A stretch of 64,000 bases of DNA, from NCBI GenBank assembly GCA_023078555.1, contig CM041202.1:2104022-2168021 (forward strand). The letters run 5' to 3'. Made by a program: the position numbers and the translations under genes. The DNA comes from Ulva prolifera (Eukaryota; Chlorophyta; Ulvophyceae; Ulvales; Ulvaceae). Each line of letters opens with the position of its first letter. The stretch's first letter is position 1. Below, piece by piece: positions 48,351 through 63,759 of this stretch. The notes beneath the pieces are model-generated. The model saw nothing but the letters and a program-made list of their open reading frames with translations. It was not told the origin of the DNA and did not search any database.

Positions 48351-50950
48351 GCATGCGGGTCATGCATCGCGGCACTGCGCATGTCGGGCATCCGTGTCTG
48401 GGGTTTTCCCGATCATTTCCCGAGTCCAGAGGCAGGAACTGAGAGCTATGCAGGGCTCTGCTGCCGCCCGAGGATCCAGGCTCCCAGCATTGCTGAGCAC
48501 AGCCGCATCTGGAAGCTCTGCAGCATGCATGCGATGCGGGGTGCAGAGGTCTGGCAGCGCGGAGAGCAAGTAGCACTCCTGCGCGATCACGGAAAAGCAC
48601 AGGAAGGGCAGGCCGGGTGTCCGTAGCGGTACTGTGTGTGATGACGACTGCAAGGCATATTGTGGCCTGATGCGGTCGCAAGCAGGTGGAAACACACGCA
48701 GAACGGGTGAGCACAGGCGGCCCAGCTGCAGGTGCCAGACGCCATGCGCGCAAGGGCCGAATGCTTGATCAGTCAGCACTGCCCGGGGGAGAATATTTGA
48801 GTATGGGATGTTGGCCCGCCCGGCGGCGACGTCTGTGCATGTTGGATGGCACCACATCAAGCAGAGCCCCGCATGCTTGCTGCAGGCCCCGATTCTTCTA
48901 GCGGTAGCATAGAGTGATTTAGAAACGAAGAGTCCCTGTGGAAGTCCAGTGATAAGACCGCTCTACCACTGGACTTCCACAGTCCCGCATGATGAAGGCT
49001 TCGGGTCCGGCAGAGGATTCGATACCGGCAAGAAGGACGGGTATGGGGAGGCTCTGAGGAGATGCGAGTGGGGTATTGGCAAGCCCCCGGCGGAGCTCGA
49101 CGCCAATGCTGCCTCACAGGGCCTCCGACGTTTGGTTTCCCACCGGATGTTTTCTGTCCGGAGGCATATGCACACGCACGCTCCCGTTGCTGATCGCTGT
49201 GGCGGGGCACACCTGACGCGTGAGCCAGCACAGTTGAGGCTGCGAAGCAGCTCGCCCTGAGCATGCCTTTTACATGCATGCCTCCGAATCCCTGCCGACT
49301 CCAGCCGCAATGCACACGAGGGGTGAGGTTGTTGCTGACGGTGGCCGTTTGAGAGCTGCCAGCGGGCTGGGCACTAGGAGTGGTGCTGACTGATGTTGGC
49401 AGGGCGGTGCTGCCAGAAGAGGTCAGCTTGACAGGGGCTCTGCAGACAGGCAAGCCAGGTTGGGCTTGCAGGACACAGTTGGAACGTAAGGAGGGGCAGG
49501 TCTGGTGCTACTGAGCTCAGCTGAGGCGTGCTGATTCTGACGGGCGCGGTGCACCTGCGAGCTAAGGGAGGATAACAGCTGTCCGCACACGAGGAGCACT
49601 GTCTCGAGATACACACGGAACATGAGGTCGTATTCAGAGCGAGATGCGCGTGTGTTTCGCTGGCTGCCAAGACACCACGCGATGCTAAAAAATTCTGCCG
49701 AACAGTTGTAGCCTTGCAGTCAAACCATTGTCCAATTCGTGTTCTGGCAACGGCTTTGGCGTAGCAGCCTGACGTGCCGGACCCCCTCCATCGCCAAGCC
49801 AAGGGTCAGCCGTCGGCACTCAGATACTCACAGAGAAGTAGAAGTATGTCTTACTGATGGTTGTTTATCAGACGAGCTTGCTGCATGCGATGTGCAGTAA
49901 ACAGCGCGGCATCCATGTCACATCGTGTAGACACACCAGCACTGCACCGTCGAGGTGGTCGAGACGTGCATCTCACAGACGGAGAGTCTCGATGTAGTTC
50001 TCGCTGGTATTGCGCAGTGTCTGTCGAGGCAGATCAAGGCGCGTTCCGACGGATCTCCACCTTCTCAGCTGTAGCTTGACATTTCGTACAACCTCTGGTC
50101 ACTGCTCACCTAGGCCAGGGTCAAAGTAAAAGCGAGAAGCAGCCAGAGTTTCTAAAATAAACCTTCTTCATACAGCGTGTAATCTCAAGCAGAGTAGGTG
50201 GCGTGGCGTGAGAGAGATACCTACTGGCACGCTGTTCTTCTGACCAGGTTGTCACGCCGTTCGATGCGAGTGATAAGAAGCAACTATCCACATGGAGATG
50301 AGATTTTGACATCTGTGCCGTGAGCTGGCGTCATCTCTATGAGAAATCTCAGCCGCACGGCAGAGGGCTCAGCTACTAACATTAGGCGGTGTCTAATCAG
50401 CAGTACCACATTCAACGTCTTCGCATTGCAGTGTGGTCGCCACGACGCGGCATCCCATCACAACGATTTCACGTGCTGGTTTCTGTGCATGCACAACAAG
50501 GCGTCTGCCGTGTGCGCAGCTGCTGCGGCCGACTGGGGAACAGGTCTATCTAGATCTGGGCAGACCGGCTGAGGTAATGCACCCAGTATCGGTCTACAAA
50601 TACTCTCCCACACTACCCATACAACCAGCTGATCACGGCAGCCCACCTACAGCGAGAGGGTGCGGTCTACGTACATACGAAGGCCCAACTGGAGCCAATG
50701 TGCATGTGCATTGGCCACTTCATGGCAGAGCATTCACTGCATCGTGACCCGACCCAACACAGCCGGATCCTAACTACCCCAGCGGCAGCCCTGGAACAGC
50801 CCTGAAACGGAATTTGAAACAAACACTATTATAAACTGTCATAAGTCATAAGGCTGTCATAAACTGGGGCTGACAACGAGGGCCCAGAGCTACATCTACT
50901 CCTGCAGCAACTTGAACCAGCTGCTGCTGTTTTTCATGTGTGCTCCCGGC
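48351..50950. other. non-coding part of unit A
   Basis: This aligns with 54886-57179 of unit B but shows no conserved reading frame between the two units, so I take it as non-coding. Unit A has about 310 bp near 48380-48690 that are absent from B, and it carries the 45-bp palindromic element. Confidence 0.5.
48937..48981. mobile_element. 45-bp palindromic mini-element, solo copy
   Basis: The element begins TGTGGAAGTCCAGTG and ends CACTGGACTTCCACA; it is an imperfect palindrome that can fold into one long hairpin. It is flanked by the perfect direct repeat GTCCC (48932-48936 and 48982-48986). The matching place in duplication unit B (about 55180-55215) lacks it. Read on the minus strand, its centre contains TGGTAGAGCGG, which fits the tRNA A-box consensus. 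Target repeat, terminal inverted repeats and empty site together indicate insertion by a transposase or integrase supplied elsewhere. No protein is encoded. Confidence 0.75.
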
Positions 50951-51690
50951 CTATGCATCGAAATCATCTATTGCCATACCCAAACACCTCAAAGTCCCGC
51001 GTGTACAACAGATACGCCAGGTCTAGATCTGCCGTCTCCTGGTTGAAGAACCGCGTCCTCTTGGAGTCGGTGTCATGGCCATCCCGCTTCCGTCCCGCAG
51101 CCGCGTCAGCCGGCTGCCCTGGCGTGCCACCCTCCCCCCTCCCACGCCGCCACCGTGGGAGGGGGGAGGAAACTCGCATAGTACTCCCCAGAGCCCATCC
51201 ATCCAGCACGGGAACCAAGTTGCCATGTCCTCGAGCCGCAGGTAGAAGTCGAACCGCAGGTCCCGCCCGCCACCGCACATCTCCGTGAGTGGCTGGAAGT
51301 GGCCGTCGACCGCCGTGACGCCCTTCTCAAACAGCGCGCGCACAAACTCCTGGAACCCGGCGGGAGTGTCAGGCCAGCGGCGCGAACGATCCTCCTGTAA
51401 GTGCATGTTCACGTTGCCGACGGTGCTCTGGTCCAGGCGCTGCAGATTGGCGACCATCTTGTCGCGGAACCCGGACAGCAGGCGCATGTAGGGGTTGCGG
51501 CTGAACGTGAACGACGGCACGTGCGGCGGCAGCCGCTCCGGCGGCGGGAGGCCCCCCCAGACCCCCTCTCCCTCGCTGCGGTCCTCTGCATACGCATCGC
51601 CGCAATCGATGTCCGCGGATGTTGTTGCTGCGTGTGGCTGCATTGCATCCGGCGAAGCCGGAGGGAGATCGATATCATCATGTACAGCTG
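50951..51690 (-). pseudogene. sulfotransferase fragment, truncated copy
   Basis: This is homologous to the 3' part of the intact gene at 57180-58826. It keeps the 3'-phosphate-binding segment (SRNPYMRLLSGFRDK), the DGHFQPLTEMCG stretch and the stop-codon region. It lacks the N-terminal signal peptide and the 5'-phosphosulfate loop because it ends at the duplication junction near 51690. After WMDGL about 240 bases present in the intact copy are missing and the frame shifts. It therefore cannot encode an active enzyme. Confidence 0.85.
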
Positions 51691-52125
51691 GAGGGTGATA
51701 CGCTGTGGTGCATCGATAGCAGCCGCGCGGTTCAGGTGCGGCCGTGTGGCGCTGCTGGGAGCTGGAGTTGGTGTGTGTGGGGGTGCTTTCATGGGGGGCG
51801 CCCAGTGGCATGCTTGGGCGGATCGGCGTGAGTCCGCGATGAAGTGGCTGGGGTGGCTTGGAGTCGTTCTGCGTTCGGGGGCAGTGCTGAGGTGATCGGA
51901 CCGCCACTGTGCGATGCTTGCTCCCTGCCTCTAACACCGTGTCCCTTGTAAACGATATTTACTGCTTGCGGAAGAGGTAATGAACATCAAATCAAACGCT
52001 TTGAAAACCCCTGCTGTGAAATGCGGAATACTGTTGTTTCGCCGGAGCCCTTGTGGAAATACCAAGAGCACGCGCACTGCAAGTGCGTCCACATCAAGCC
52101 TTCAACTGACGTGCACCTACTCGCC

Positions 52126-57179: not shown

Positions 57180-58826
57180 CTACGCATCGAACGCATCTAT
57201 CACCGCACGCTCATACCCAAACACCTCAAAGTCCCGTGCGTACAACAAATATGCCAGGTCTGCCGTCTCCTGGCCGAAGAATCGCGTCCACGTCCTCTGC
57301 GCGTCGGTGTCATGGCCATCCCGCTTCCGCCCCGCAGCTGCGTCAGCCGGCTGCCCCGACGCGCCACCCTCTCGCGCCGCCCCCGGCACAACGCTCCCGT
57401 CCGCCGCCGTGAAACTCGCATAGTACTCCTCACACGTCATCCCCGGCGGCGCCCACCAGCACCTGTCCCCACTCAGCAGGTCCCAGTCCACCCCCCGCTC
57501 CCCCCACGTCGCACGCCCGCTGCTCTCATTCCACGCCGGCGGCCGCCGCTTCGCGCCGTACGATTTCAGCGTCACAAACTTATCCACCACCCCCCTCCCG
57601 AGGTACATCACCCCCTGAGAGCTCGCACTCCACCCTGTCTCTGTCCACCCCCGCAGCCCGAGCCCATCCATCCAGCACGGGAACCAAGTCGCCATGTCCT
57701 CGAGCCGCAGGTAGAAGTCGAACCGCAGGTCCCGGCCCCCGCCGCACATCTCCGTGAGTGGCTGGAAGTGGCCGTCGACCGCCGTGACGCCCTTCTCAAA
57801 CAGCGCGCGCACAAACTCCTGGAACCCGGCGGGGGTGTCAGGCCAGCGGCGCGACCGATCCTGCTGTAAGTGCATGTTCACGTTGCCGACGGTGTTCTGG
57901 TCCAGGCGCAGCGGGTTGGCGACCATCTTGTCGCGGAAGCCGGAGAGCAGTCGCATGTAGGGGTTGCGGCCGAACGTGAACGACGGCACGTGCGCCGGCA
58001 GCCGCTCCGGCGGCGGCAGGGCCCCCCCGTCCCCCTCGCCCATGCCGCCGTCCTCCGAATCGTCGTAATTGATGTCCGCGGACGTCATCGCTGCGTGTAG
58101 CTGCGTTGCATCCGGCGCAGCCGGGGGGAGATCGATGTCATCATCTACAGTTGGGGGAGTGTCAGGCACGGATGCCAGGTCCATGCCGCGGGCGGCCGGC
58201 GGCTGGTCCTCAGGGCGCCACAGGACCCCGTCCGATGCCAGCCGCCGCCGCGCGGGCCGCCGCCGCGGCGCCGCCGCCGCCGCGCCGCCCGCGCCCGCGG
58301 TCAGGTCGTACAGCACCACCGCCGGGTAGCTCACGACGTGCACGGTCTGGAACTGCGCGAGCGCGTCGGTCTGCGGCGGCGCCGGGTGCGAGAGCATGGT
58401 GTGCAGCAGCTTCCGGATGTTTGTGCAGCCGGCCTTCGGCACCGTGCACAGCATGAACGGCGCCGTGTCGTTCGACGCCACGAGGAGCGGCTGGCTGGCC
58501 CCGGCGAGCTTCGCAGGCTCGCACCCCACCGTGCTCTGGTGGGAGATGAGGTTCGAGACCCCCGCCTCCGACCAGCGGCTGCGGTACGACTCGATCACCC
58601 TCGCGCAGTGTGGTGACAGGCGGTCGTAGAAGCTGAGTCCGCTGTCGGGGACGGTGCCGCAGAGGCCGCGCGCGGGGCACTGCGGGTCGAGGTCGGTAAG
58701 CTGGCCGGTGTGCCGGACCCTCCACATGCATTCGCGGGACGACACGGCGGCGGTATCGGCGAGATGTATGGCCACCAGCACCGCGAGGAACCCTGCACGG
58801 GCTGCACAATCCGTCGGCCGAAGCAT
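57180..58826 (-). CDS. carbohydrate sulfotransferase (Sulfotransfer_2 type), intact
   Basis: A single 548-residue frame starts at the ATG at 58826. Residues 9-28 are hydrophobic (a signal peptide or Golgi type II anchor). The 5'-phosphosulfate loop is TVPKAGCTN (128-136) within FMLCTVPKAGCTNIRKLLH. The 3'-phosphate-binding segment is RNPYMRLLSGF (287-297), followed by FQEFVRALF and DGHFQPLTEMCG (351-362). These are the signatures of the Golgi PAPS-dependent sulfotransferases of the chondroitin-4-sulfotransferase/HNK-1 type, which transfer sulfate to sugars of glycoproteins or polysaccharides in the Golgi lumen. About 150 residues separate the two PAPS motifs, because an Ala/Arg/Pro-rich and acidic insert (about 178-275) extends the usual spacing. 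The acceptor sugar cannot be told from the sequence. The 5' quarter lies outside the duplicated unit, which is why only this copy is complete. No intron is needed, unlike all neighbouring genes. Confidence 0.87.
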   Translation of the reverse strand: MLRPTDCAARAGFLAVLVAIHLADTAAVSSRECMWRVRHTGQLTDLDPQCPARGLCGTVPDSGLSFYDRLSPHCARVIESYRSRWSEAGVSNLISHQSTVGCEPAKLAGASQPLLVASNDTAPFMLCTVPKAGCTNIRKLLHTMLSHPAPPQTDALAQFQTVHVVSYPAVVLYDLTAGAGGAAAAAPRRRPARRRLASDGVLWRPEDQPPAARGMDLASVPDTPPTVDDDIDLPPAAPDATQLHAAMTSADINYDDSEDGGMGEGDGGALPPPERLPAHVPSFTFGRNPYMRLLSGFRDKMVANPLRLDQNTVGNVNMHLQQDRSRRWPDTPAGFQEFVRALFEKGVTAVDGHFQPLTEMCGGGRDLRFDFYLRLEDMATWFPCWMDGLGLRGWTETGWSASSQGVMYLGRGVVDKFVTLKSYGAKRRPPAWNESSGRATWGERGVDWDLLSGDRCWWAPPGMTCEEYYASFTAADGSVVPGAAREGGASGQPADAAAGRKRDGHDTDAQRTWTRFFGQETADLAYLLYARDFEVFGYERAVIDAFDA

Positions 58827-61800
58827 GAAACGATCTTAAGACTCGCATGTACGTGCATGCATGACGGGAGGTAAGCGCGTGGCTGGAGGTGCTTGCGGGA
58901 GGGGACGGGCAGGTTTGTGTCGAGCAGTGATGTCGGCTATTATGCAATAAGGGACCCAGCAGACCGACTGCGGCCCGCACTTTTCAAACTGCATATTGAT
59001 TACTTCGCAGTTCCGGGGGGTGGGATCTCTCAGCAGCGCACACTGGCGAGCCTGACCGGTCCCGAGACCCCCACGATCTGAGCCTTGCACGCCATTGGTA
59101 CAGCTTCGCAGATGAAGCAGGCATTGGCTGAAGGACAGGAAACACGAGGTAGCAGTCGCTTGAAAAGCGTGGTCCTCCAGCAGCGGCAGCGGCTGCAAAC
59201 TCCGAGGCGGAGGACGCAGGCTCCTACGTATGACACATGTACCCTATGCCCTGCCTCACACATGTGCTGCGCGCTGCAGCCGACACGAATCGCCCACTCC
59301 CACGCTGCCCGCTGTGGCTGCGGAAAGCAGTCAGAGCCATGCAACACGGTCTGGGATTCAGGCTGGCAAACCTTCAGCCCTGTACCGTCACCAGAAATCC
59401 GTAAACGCACATCGTTCAATGCATGGCCGGGCAGCGTCCCACAGGTACAGCTGAGTCATCAGCGGCGCCAAAAAAGCATACCCCGTCCACACACAAGGAT
59501 TGTGTTGCATACTGCGGCGGCCGCGGCACAGCACACAGCAGAGCGTTTCGCGCACGGCAGCCTTATGGCGGCACACCCGATCTGTCAGTCCAGACCACCC
59601 TCGCCTCTGTGTCTTCAGGTTCCTCTGGCACCGTGGTGTGGTGTTCGGCGGTGTCTGGCGGGGGATGGTGTATGGTACGGGTGTTCCATATGCAATGATG
59701 TTGGACCCCAACATCCCTGACTAGACCATCCCTGACTACGCAGCTGCCACACTGTAGCACTGCTCACAACTGTAACTGCTGCAAGTACAGGGTGGCAACC
59801 GCGCAGGTGTCATGGGGGCCTTGGCCAGTGTGCTACATACTAAGGGCTACATCTGAAAGTAGATCGTGACACACTCACTGCAGCTGCATGCATGCATTGG
59901 GGCGTTGGCATGCTTTGTTGTTGCCCTGGCAGTGCTACTGGCCACCTGACTCATTGCAGCCGCTGGAGCAGCAGCAGCAGCAGGTGAATTCATCGATGCA
60001 CGACTGCCAGTTAAAGTGTGTACTGCCTAGATAAATGTCCCAGATGTATGTGGTATGTACATGCCACGAAACACACTGCATGTGCACATACTCGATCACG
60101 TGCTGACTATTTGGCTGTGAGCAGACCCGTGACTATTCAACACTGATTGCATACATGTGCCGTGGTGTCGTCACTGCATGTGTACATGCCCTGAAATCGT
60201 GCAGACGCACTGTTTCGTGATGACACCTTGATATTTAGCACTTTTTCAGATGGCAGCCTACTGGCTGAAGCAGCACGGCTCGCCTTCCTCTGTCCATGAG
60301 GCAAAGGCAAGGGACCGACACATCACATAGCTCCGGATCGCAGAACAGGCAAAATATCCATCCGACCAGGTGGAAAGGCCTCAGAGAGATGATTCATATG
60401 CAGCCGATCAGACTGCAGGGCCACAGACAATGCTCATCGCAGGTTGAATCACATCAAGGAAGGCTTATGCGATTGCAACGCAGGTGGCAAGATCGCCAGA
60501 GAGCAAGCAAACTGGCCTGAGACTTACCACAATGAGGTAGAGCTGATCCAAGGGTGCCGAAAGTGGCCGCATATCGCTTTTAGAACAAGCTGGTGACTGG
60601 ATTGTCCGACAGCGCGCTGCGTTACAGTGGAGCTCACAGAAATGAAGATGACGTGCGTGACAACTGATTCCAGACATCAATTCTACTAGAGTGGTGATTC
60701 GTTTGCAATACTGTGGCAGTGGACTTCAGACTGGCAGCGAGCCAGGGACGTTGTAGCTCTGGATCCCGAATCATCGCCATACAAAGCCTGCCTGATACTG
60801 CTATGCGCTACCACATGTTCTCACAGCCGGCGATTATGTCAAGTACAATCCACATGGCTCCTGCTGTCGACTTTGTGCATGGCGCTTGGCGAGAGCGCAT
60901 GTCACGCACGGCGGTCCAGTGCACAGGCACAGTTAGCGTCAAAGTCTTTCCCTGGCTGGCAGCAGCATTGTTGGGCGCCAATTTAGAAACATCGTGACGA
61001 GTTATGGAGGCTCTGGATCATCTTGGTCGATCACACACTGCTAACATTTCGTCGTCGCCCGTTCGACACACAGTGCCACAGCTGGACGCGGAAGTACACA
61101 TGTGCGCTCCGTTCGATATGCTGCCCCGCAATTGCGCGCAAGTGCTTATCCGACTGCAACTATCGTGCACACGAGCATTGACAGACCTTCAGGCCACTGA
61201 CCTTTGCGACGGTATCGTTTTGCACGTCGTGGGCATGCGTTTGCAACATTGCAATTGGGCGTTGTGACAGAACAGGCGGGCAGCTGTCAGGACAGCGTAC
61301 CGCCTGGTCGCGTCACGCAATTTGATCACGAGACGACTGTCGATGGAAACATAGTTTATCCGTAGAGGACTGCTTACCTGAGCGTGCCATTGTTGCCCGT
61401 GTTCGCCGTCCCTACAGAGAGCCCGCTGTAGCAGCGATGCTGGTGCGACGACGGTGTCGACGGTTGTTTATGGTGTGCCTGGTTAGCGCTGTACACGCAA
61501 GAGTCCACAGGCAGTATCCTTACAGTCAAGGCCAACTGTAAGAACATGAAGAGCTGTATCTGACGCCTACTCATCTATCGTGTTCAGATCGCTGGCAGGT
61601 GTCCATTCTGGGCAATCGCTGAGATGATGATTGTTCTCGCGGCTGACAATGGCATTCATCGATATCACGGGAGTAGGTAGCTATAGATCAGCTGCAGATA
61701 TACGTAATGGCCTCCAAGTGGAGTTGCAAGCGCGCTACATGTACAGGTTCGAGCTGCATGACGTCCGCCATGGTCAACGGCATGTGACAGCAACGTCTCT

Positions 61801-63406: not shown

Positions 63407-63440
<34 letters not shown>

Positions 63441-63618
63441 TGAGGCTTGAGGGACATCTGGAATGCTGAGGACTGTCGGAGTGCTGCATAGCACATCACA
63501 CACAACACCTTGCAGCCACATCACATCAGCATGGCCCAGTCGCAGGAGAATTCCATGTCACCATGGCCACTGCGGCACAGTCAGCCTAACAACATCCAAA
63601 GCGACCAACACCACACCT
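58827..63618. other. gene-poor right flank
   Basis: I recognise no gene family. Frames of 87-211 codons (for example 59085-59720 and 61004-61267 on the plus strand) lack motifs and splice support. The first few hundred bases presumably contain the promoter of the minus-strand sulfotransferase. Confidence 0.45.
63408..63437. repeat. poly-G run (30 G)
   Basis: Thirty uninterrupted G residues. On the minus strand the run is entered as 'caagtccccc', so a GT sits directly before the poly-C, as at the other splice-site-linked runs, but no exon is recognised here. Confidence 0.85.
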
Positions 63619-63754
63619 TGTGGCAATCCAGTGATATGGCCGCTATACCACTGGATTGCCACAAAAGCAGGGTCCTCTGAGATCTGAGGCTGGCCAGTCC
63701 CCCAGCTTTTGTGGCAATCCAGTGGTATAGCGGCCATATCACTGGATTGCCACA
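63619..63754. mobile_element. 136-bp composite palindromic element (MITE-like)
   Basis: Two 45-bp palindromic units (63619-63663 and 63710-63754) are exact reverse complements of each other. They enclose 46 bp whose ends are also inverted (aaagc and gcttt). Outer ends are TGTGGCAATCC and GGATTGCCACA. The whole is flanked by the perfect 5-bp direct repeat CACCT (63614-63618 and 63755-63759). It is non-coding. TGT...ACA ends with a short target duplication are seen in integrase-type DNA transposons such as Ginger and also in retroelement LTRs; which group mobilises this one is unknown. Confidence 0.75.
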
Positions 63755-63759
63755 CACCT

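Follow-up and report, generated by a model that had tools for sequence, protein, structure and literature searches.

A TRIMp3-like family of palindromic mini-elements in Ulva prolifera, probably inserted by a Copia integrase

Introduction

MITEs and fold-back elements end in long inverted repeats, show no evident coding capacity, reach high copy numbers and give rise to derivatives by internal deletion, and copia of Drosophila is a Copia LTR retrotransposon that uses a half-tRNA primer. Judged from the main texts cited here, the nearest published kind to the elements described below is TRIMp3 (Helenus, Ajax and Cassandra), short non-autonomous LTR-type elements whose LTRs carry the promoter sequence of a small RNA, tRNA or 5S (PMC10886601, PMC7215508). 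Helenus of fungi and plants has 5-bp duplications, as does Ajax; dependence on Copia has been proposed for fungal Helenus, and the LTRs of Helenus enclose a primer-binding site and a polypurine tract (PMC10886601); for Cassandra, short tandem arrays have been reported (PMC7215508). TRIMs are also reported in Chlamydomonas and Volvox, by authors who keep TRIMs, with direct repeats, apart from MITEs, with inverted repeats (PMC4717578). The word stem "palindrom" is absent from the main text of PMC10886601 and from that of PMC4717578, and among the open-access papers listed by our searches we recognised no palindromic LTR-like element of the present kind.

The elements that we describe consist of a core between two end units, U, and compare with these systems in several ways. 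Like TRIMp3, U-core-U is short, carries tRNA-like boxes, is flanked by 5-bp duplications, has a link to Copia and occurs in a tandem array (PMC10886601, PMC7215508). Unlike Helenus it has no recognised primer-binding site or polypurine tract, and unlike TRIMp3 as described in the main text its end unit is itself a palindrome, and its A and B boxes are split between U and the core, respectively (PMC10886601); because of these differences we call the family TRIMp3-like and not a member of TRIMp3. It resembles TRIMs and SMARTs in its sub-kilobase size and direct terminal repeats, but it has direct and inverted repeats at once, unlike the division between TRIMs and MITEs drawn in PMC4717578.

With MITEs and fold-back elements the family shares long terminal inverted repeats, lack of evident coding, high copy number and deletion derivatives. 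Unlike them, its ends match a Copia LTR and its chimeras with that Copia family, here named copia-A, have one common duplication; the MITE description fits the shape of the family, not the chimeras. Through its GGTTATGGGCCCAT, copia-A, the presumed mobiliser, is like Copia elements with half-tRNA primers, whereas U-core-U is too short for Copia proteins and shows no such site.

Results and Discussion

An abundant family of palindromic units

The window, the whole stretch of DNA analysed, comprises 64,000 nucleotides of Ulva prolifera (C7:2104022-2168021). The genome searched spans 88.9 Mb in 44 contigs, and all counts from this search are lower bounds. The features of the window element and of a solo unit are as follows, in positions of the window.

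48932-48936, no strand: left 5-bp duplication GTCCC of the solo unit
48937-48981, no strand: solo U45 of a variant subfamily, with a GGAAGTCC arm and the matching change in the other arm
48958-48968, minus strand: putative A box in the solo U45, from a 14-mer match to tRNA-Cys
48982-48986, no strand: right 5-bp duplication GTCCC of the solo unit
63614-63618, no strand: left 5-bp target-site duplication CACCT
63619-63663, no strand: left U45, a palindromic end unit (TGTGG..CCACA) of the U45/U100 unit family
63640-63650, minus strand: putative tRNA-like A box TGGTATAGCGG in the left U45
63664-63709, minus strand: core remnant of 46 bp in reverse orientation, from alignment to the right end of the 194-bp core
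63710-63754, no strand: right U45, exact reverse complement of the left U45
63723-63733, plus strand: putative tRNA-like A box TGGTATAGCGG in the right U45
63755-63759, no strand: right 5-bp target-site duplication CACCT

The initial annotation had described two 45-bp palindromes around a 46-bp core between CACCT repeats, and a solo relative at 48937-48981 between GTCCC repeats. The coordinates are correct, the two 45-mers are exact reverse complements of each other, and both flanks of the solo unit are confirmed. The inverted arms of the window element reach 54 nt at 98%, and the 45-mer palindrome is slightly imperfect, with 2 of 22 pairs mismatched at positions 16 and 20 (scored in the right unit of locus L037, which has the same sequence). 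Read on the minus strand, the solo U45 is CCAGTGGTAGAGCGGTC, and it has the 14-mer CAGTGGTAGAGCGG in common with the genome's tRNA-Cys. Folded as single-stranded DNA, the 146-nt window stretch has z = -16.5 and the 55-nt solo stretch z = -7.9. An 18-base end motif has, at up to two mismatches, at least 970 forward and at least 974 reverse sites in the genome (1,944 in total), against 71 and 64 matches (135 in total) of its reversed control in the same search; given these fold scores and this excess, the palindromic units exceed chance, and the window and solo units belong to one abundant family.

The intact form of the family is U100-core194-U100, 394 bp in total, in which U100 is a near-perfect 100-bp palindrome. 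U starts TGTGGCAAT and ends ATTGCCACA, the starting sequence being the complement of the ending one, and U45, found in either orientation, is U100 minus the 55 bp between two CACTGGAT repeats. At up to three mismatches, the 24-base centre of U100 has at least 101 sites and the 24-base junction of U45 at least 711 (351 and 360 on the two strands), with 0 for the control of each. The core has at least 42 matches. Compared with the left unit of L033, the U100 repeats of L033, L034, L035 and L036 are 97-100% identical in direct register. The family thus has direct terminal repeats with TG..CA ends (TGTGG..CCACA), as TRIMs do, together with terminal inverted repeats and a target duplication of fixed length, as MITEs do. 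Among the composite arrangements, L035 is a 688-bp tandem array, U-C-U-C-U, and L044 has a pair of inverted cores enclosed by U45s.

In the window element, 42 of 44 aligned core bases are identical to the right end of core194 read in reverse complement, which makes this element a U45-core-U45 with an internal deletion. The 45-bp unit put forward in the initial annotation is therefore probably not the basic form, and its 46-bp core is the remnant of a reversed core of 194 bp. A snap-back origin of the window core was considered and dropped, since simple internal deletion suffices for the same 42 of 44 bases. Rfam miRNA matches on U100 lie below the gathering scores and reflect any long hairpin, and a 22-base U pattern has no exact match among viral contigs. 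At L041 (1748-1934) the two parts of a U100 stand about 190 bp apart, separated by other sequence through an insertion or rearrangement within the palindrome.

Target-site duplications of a single length

Flanks were compared for 33 distinct solo U-like units (30 of 63 units, those touching a core, were dropped beforehand), which include overlapping units in L077 and the near-duplicates L028 and L029. An exact 5-bp flank repeat is present in 13 of the 33 and a repeat with one mismatch in 9 more, against a mean of 0.48 exact 5-mers when the pairing of flanks is shuffled. Every one of these units has 0, 1, 2 or 5 bases as its longest exact repeat, one or two bases being the length expected by chance, and none of the 33 has a longest repeat of 3, 4 or at least 6; 20 of the 33 are without an exact 5-bp repeat, and 16 of the 33 are without an exact repeat of any length.

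Composites, found at first with a filter that required exact repeats, were recounted without it. The core sequence lies in 33 loci and the window, and these yield 11 independent composites with the end motif on both sides, 9 of which have exact 5-bp repeats (the window, L025, L033-L037, L044 and L060), among them TTAAT at L033 and AATGC on both sides of L034, taken at the 394-bp end. The flanks of the L048 composite differ at three of five bases; the L043 composite has no flank bases in common at its outermost motif, and from a nearer left end, altered by a small insertion, it has GCAGT on both sides. The exact duplications of solos and composites alike are thus 5 bp long, within the 4-6 bp of TRIMs, and the mobility, duplication length, and solo and paired forms proposed from the window hold in the copies examined elsewhere (exact repeats in 13 of 33 solos and 9 of 11 composites).

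copia-A, the proposed partner

Several core loci sit in or beside copia-A. Its LTR of about 420 bp begins TGTGGGAAG and closes CATATTGCCACA (..ATTGCCACA, as in U), intact copies on contigs C3 and C1 are flanked by the 5-bp duplications GTGGA and GGCTT, and its open reading frame of 1,390 aa holds gag, pre-integrase, rve, SH3 and RVT_2 domains in Copia order. U and the copia-A LTR have only 9 terminal bp in common on one side and 5 on the other. Among five other LTR-element loci, the LTRs of two families could be delimited (L097 and L100), and both end ..CACAACA. copia-A looks young, given that at least nine copies match the 2,746-base query from end to end and that, of 40 LTR matches scored, 35 are 97-100% identical to their query. 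At the end of the 5' LTR stands GGTTATGGGCCCAT, which we take to be complementary to the initiator-Met anticodon arm, and the tract before the 3' LTR reads, by eye, ..GAGGGGGTG.

The second LTR family at L100 (690-910 and beyond), with a 221-bp repeat and the LTR end CACAACA, carries the same GGTTATGGGCCCAT stretch past its LTR as copia-A. Copies of the copia-A LTR lie at near-equal positions in two small contigs (C26:6661-7080 and C27:6668-7087), which are perhaps redundant.

Chimeric insertions that join U to copia-A

Two clean chimeras have U at one end, a copia-A LTR at the other and a single shared 5-bp duplication, which is what an integrase acting on both ends leaves. The first (L038, on contig C7; 1,655 bp) runs from U45 and core194 through copia-A pol as far as the 3' LTR and is flanked on either side by GGTGC; it sits inside an integrase (rve) frame, and the empty site joined with one GGTGC reads open. 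The second (L047; 680 bp) consists of U100, core bases 1-144 and the copia-A 3' end with its LTR, with AGAAG on both sides. This second chimera and its duplication recur at L049, which was counted once with L047: a stretch of 3.1 kb is 99.8% identical between contig C1 near 11,533,900 (L047) and contig C9 near 94,000 (L049), a recent duplication of the locus.

A third chimera, on contig C3, holds a copia-A fragment that reaches LTR position 357, an A-rich tract absent from the genomic copia-A LTR, core194 and U100, with AAATG on both sides and a full copia-A inserted into it later. It is a weaker case because its duplication is ambiguous (AAATG or AAATGTG) and no more than about six bases of U or LTR survive at its left end. 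Taken for a poly(A) tail, the A-rich tract at this truncated LTR suggests that a copia-A transcript served as template in at least this one case. A fourth and older chimera (L059) joins U45 and core bases 1-92 to the copia-A 3' end and LTR; the copia-A portion has diverged by about 10%, and the chimera has no 5-bp repeat (CTGCC/CACCA). At C3:2914331 copia-A stops 6 bp from a U100 centre, and at C4:8057237 it stops 4 bp from the inferred start of a U45, both junctions being placed by coordinates only. Two further loci were left out of the count: L041, where the adjacent copia-A has its own duplication GGCTT about 310 bp off and is a neighbour, and L064, where a 78-bp copia-A fragment adjoins U45 without a common repeat.

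These junctions bear on whether the family could be a classical MITE or fold-back DNA transposon, moved by some unrecognised transposase with 5-bp duplications and fused to copia-A by accident, which we consider unlikely. Such an origin agrees with the inverted-repeat architecture, with the U sites (101 U100 centres and 711 U45 junctions, lower bounds) far exceeding the 42 core matches, and with the difference between left and right U that is retained across the two insertions L033 and L034, and the transposase side was covered by an rve search only; but it does not lead one to expect two clean U/copia-A chimeras, each with a single common 5-bp duplication, nor U ends that match copia-A LTR ends, nor an A-rich junction at a truncated LTR. 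Between the two affinities first suggested for the ends, Ginger-like transposons and LTRs, the Copia partner and the chimeric insertions favour the LTR. One rve-domain search, with 150 of 626 candidates scored, showed no Ginger-like DNA transposon, and a U end at up to two mismatches occurs in 0 of 12 fetched rve loci, within a 3.3-kb stretch (rve-domain genes being the only ones searched).

tRNA-like boxes, priming sites and unequal ends

Two blocks match tRNA-Cys-GCA of this genome, in the correct order, across the right half of U100 and the initial 60 bases of the core (CAGTGGTATAGCGGC against CAGTGGTAGAGCGGC, and AGGTCGGTAGTTCGAC against AGGTCGGCAGTTCAAC). In a split test with 40 of the 61 listed tRNA matches, no methionine tRNA being among the 40, tRNA-Cys-GCA came out best with a combined score of 47; 1000 shuffles peaked at 40 and 1000 genomic 110-mers from L061-L080 at 37, so that 0 of 1000 reached it in either set. 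In tests of single blocks the counts were 0 and 1 of 200 shuffles. Neither Rfam nor ARAGORN calls a tRNA in the element. U holds the A box and the core the B box, where TRIMp3 (Helenus) has both inside the LTR, and a TTTT at the core-U junction would stop polymerase III.

Sites for standard priming were sought at the core ends. By eye there is no copia-A-like primer-binding site there, and a comparison with the 40 tRNAs (no methionine tRNA included), which also missed copia-A's own site, yielded no exact complementary word of at least 8 bases. The core start, tried as a match to a tRNA 3' end, gave nothing convincing, and no polypurine tract was seen by eye before the 3' repeat, the core ending ..CAGAGGACCCAGCTTT.

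The elements at L033 and L034 are identical over 394 bp and have different duplications, and in both the left U is symmetric and the right U is altered at position 38; L036 has two Us that are symmetric but differ from each other. Since canonical LTR replication equalises both repeats, the unequal ends of L033 and L034 point to a route that is not the standard one, and another, such as fold-back copying within each U, seems worth testing, on the strength of a few copies.

The same observations weigh on a reading of the family as an ordinary TRIM or TRIMp3 of the Helenus type, replicated by the standard LTR pathway from a tRNA primer and a polypurine tract. Its size, TG..CA ends, 5-bp duplications and tRNA-like boxes would all be expected, as would the tandem U-C-U-C-U of L035 and the Copia partner; however, no primer-binding site (within the 40 tRNAs compared) or polypurine tract was recognised, the repeats are palindromic, the B box is outside the repeat, and L033 and L034 retain unequal ends, so that we regard this origin as distinctly improbable. 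A tRNA-derived SINE copied by a LINE would account for the tRNA-Cys-like A and B boxes, but SINEs are expected to show duplications of variable length and a 3' tail, whereas here the exact duplications have a single length (5 bp), the inverted ends are defined, no 3' tail is present and sequence beyond the expected transcript is retained, which makes this origin scarcely credible.

A non-coding element that would use a Copia integrase

The family is, in our judgement, probably a non-coding, palindromic and TRIMp3-like mini-retroelement, U-core-U, inserted by a Copia integrase. U would act as a palindromic LTR-like end of 100 bp, or of 45 bp after internal deletion, and the copia-A integrase would take U ends like its own LTR ends and insert U-bearing molecules with a 5-bp duplication. 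The use of an integrase has strong support; that this integrase in particular performs the insertion is what we infer from the ends and the chimeras. The split tRNA-Cys-like promoter, with its A box in U and its B box in the core, probably gives rise to an RNA polymerase III transcript; the U-core part would then itself pass through RNA, its transcript being copied alongside copia-A RNA, and template switching between the two would yield the chimeras.

How such a transcript would be primed is more conjectural. Palindromic LTRs may supplant the primer-binding site and polypurine tract, with U-core RNA priming itself by fold-back of U inside Copia particles and each U being regenerated from one half by snap-back copying; we offer this as a tentative proposal with perhaps rather poor odds. 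Beside it we set the observation that nucleotide 1 of the tRNA, extrapolated without gaps, lands 3 bases from the U100 centre. If true, self-priming by palindromic LTRs would be a distinct mode of replication among LTR-type retroelements.

The chimeras provide a direct test of the dependence of TRIM-like elements on an autonomous partner, and the family suggests that a Copia integrase needs little beyond a short end sequence to insert other DNA. Some repeats that look like MITEs, and that shape alone would file as MITEs, may be parasites of LTR retrotransposons, and insertion of the family by copia-A enzymes would blur the usual line between inverted-repeat, MITE-like mobile DNA and that which is retrovirus-like.

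Other features of the window

A run of 30 G lies at 63408-63437, about 180 bp upstream of the window element. Two open frames of at least 250 aa each, both on the minus strand (51023-51958 and 57180-58835), look like paralogues because long stretches of them are near-identical, for example YMRLLSGFRDKMVAN; we presume them to be sulfotransferase-like.
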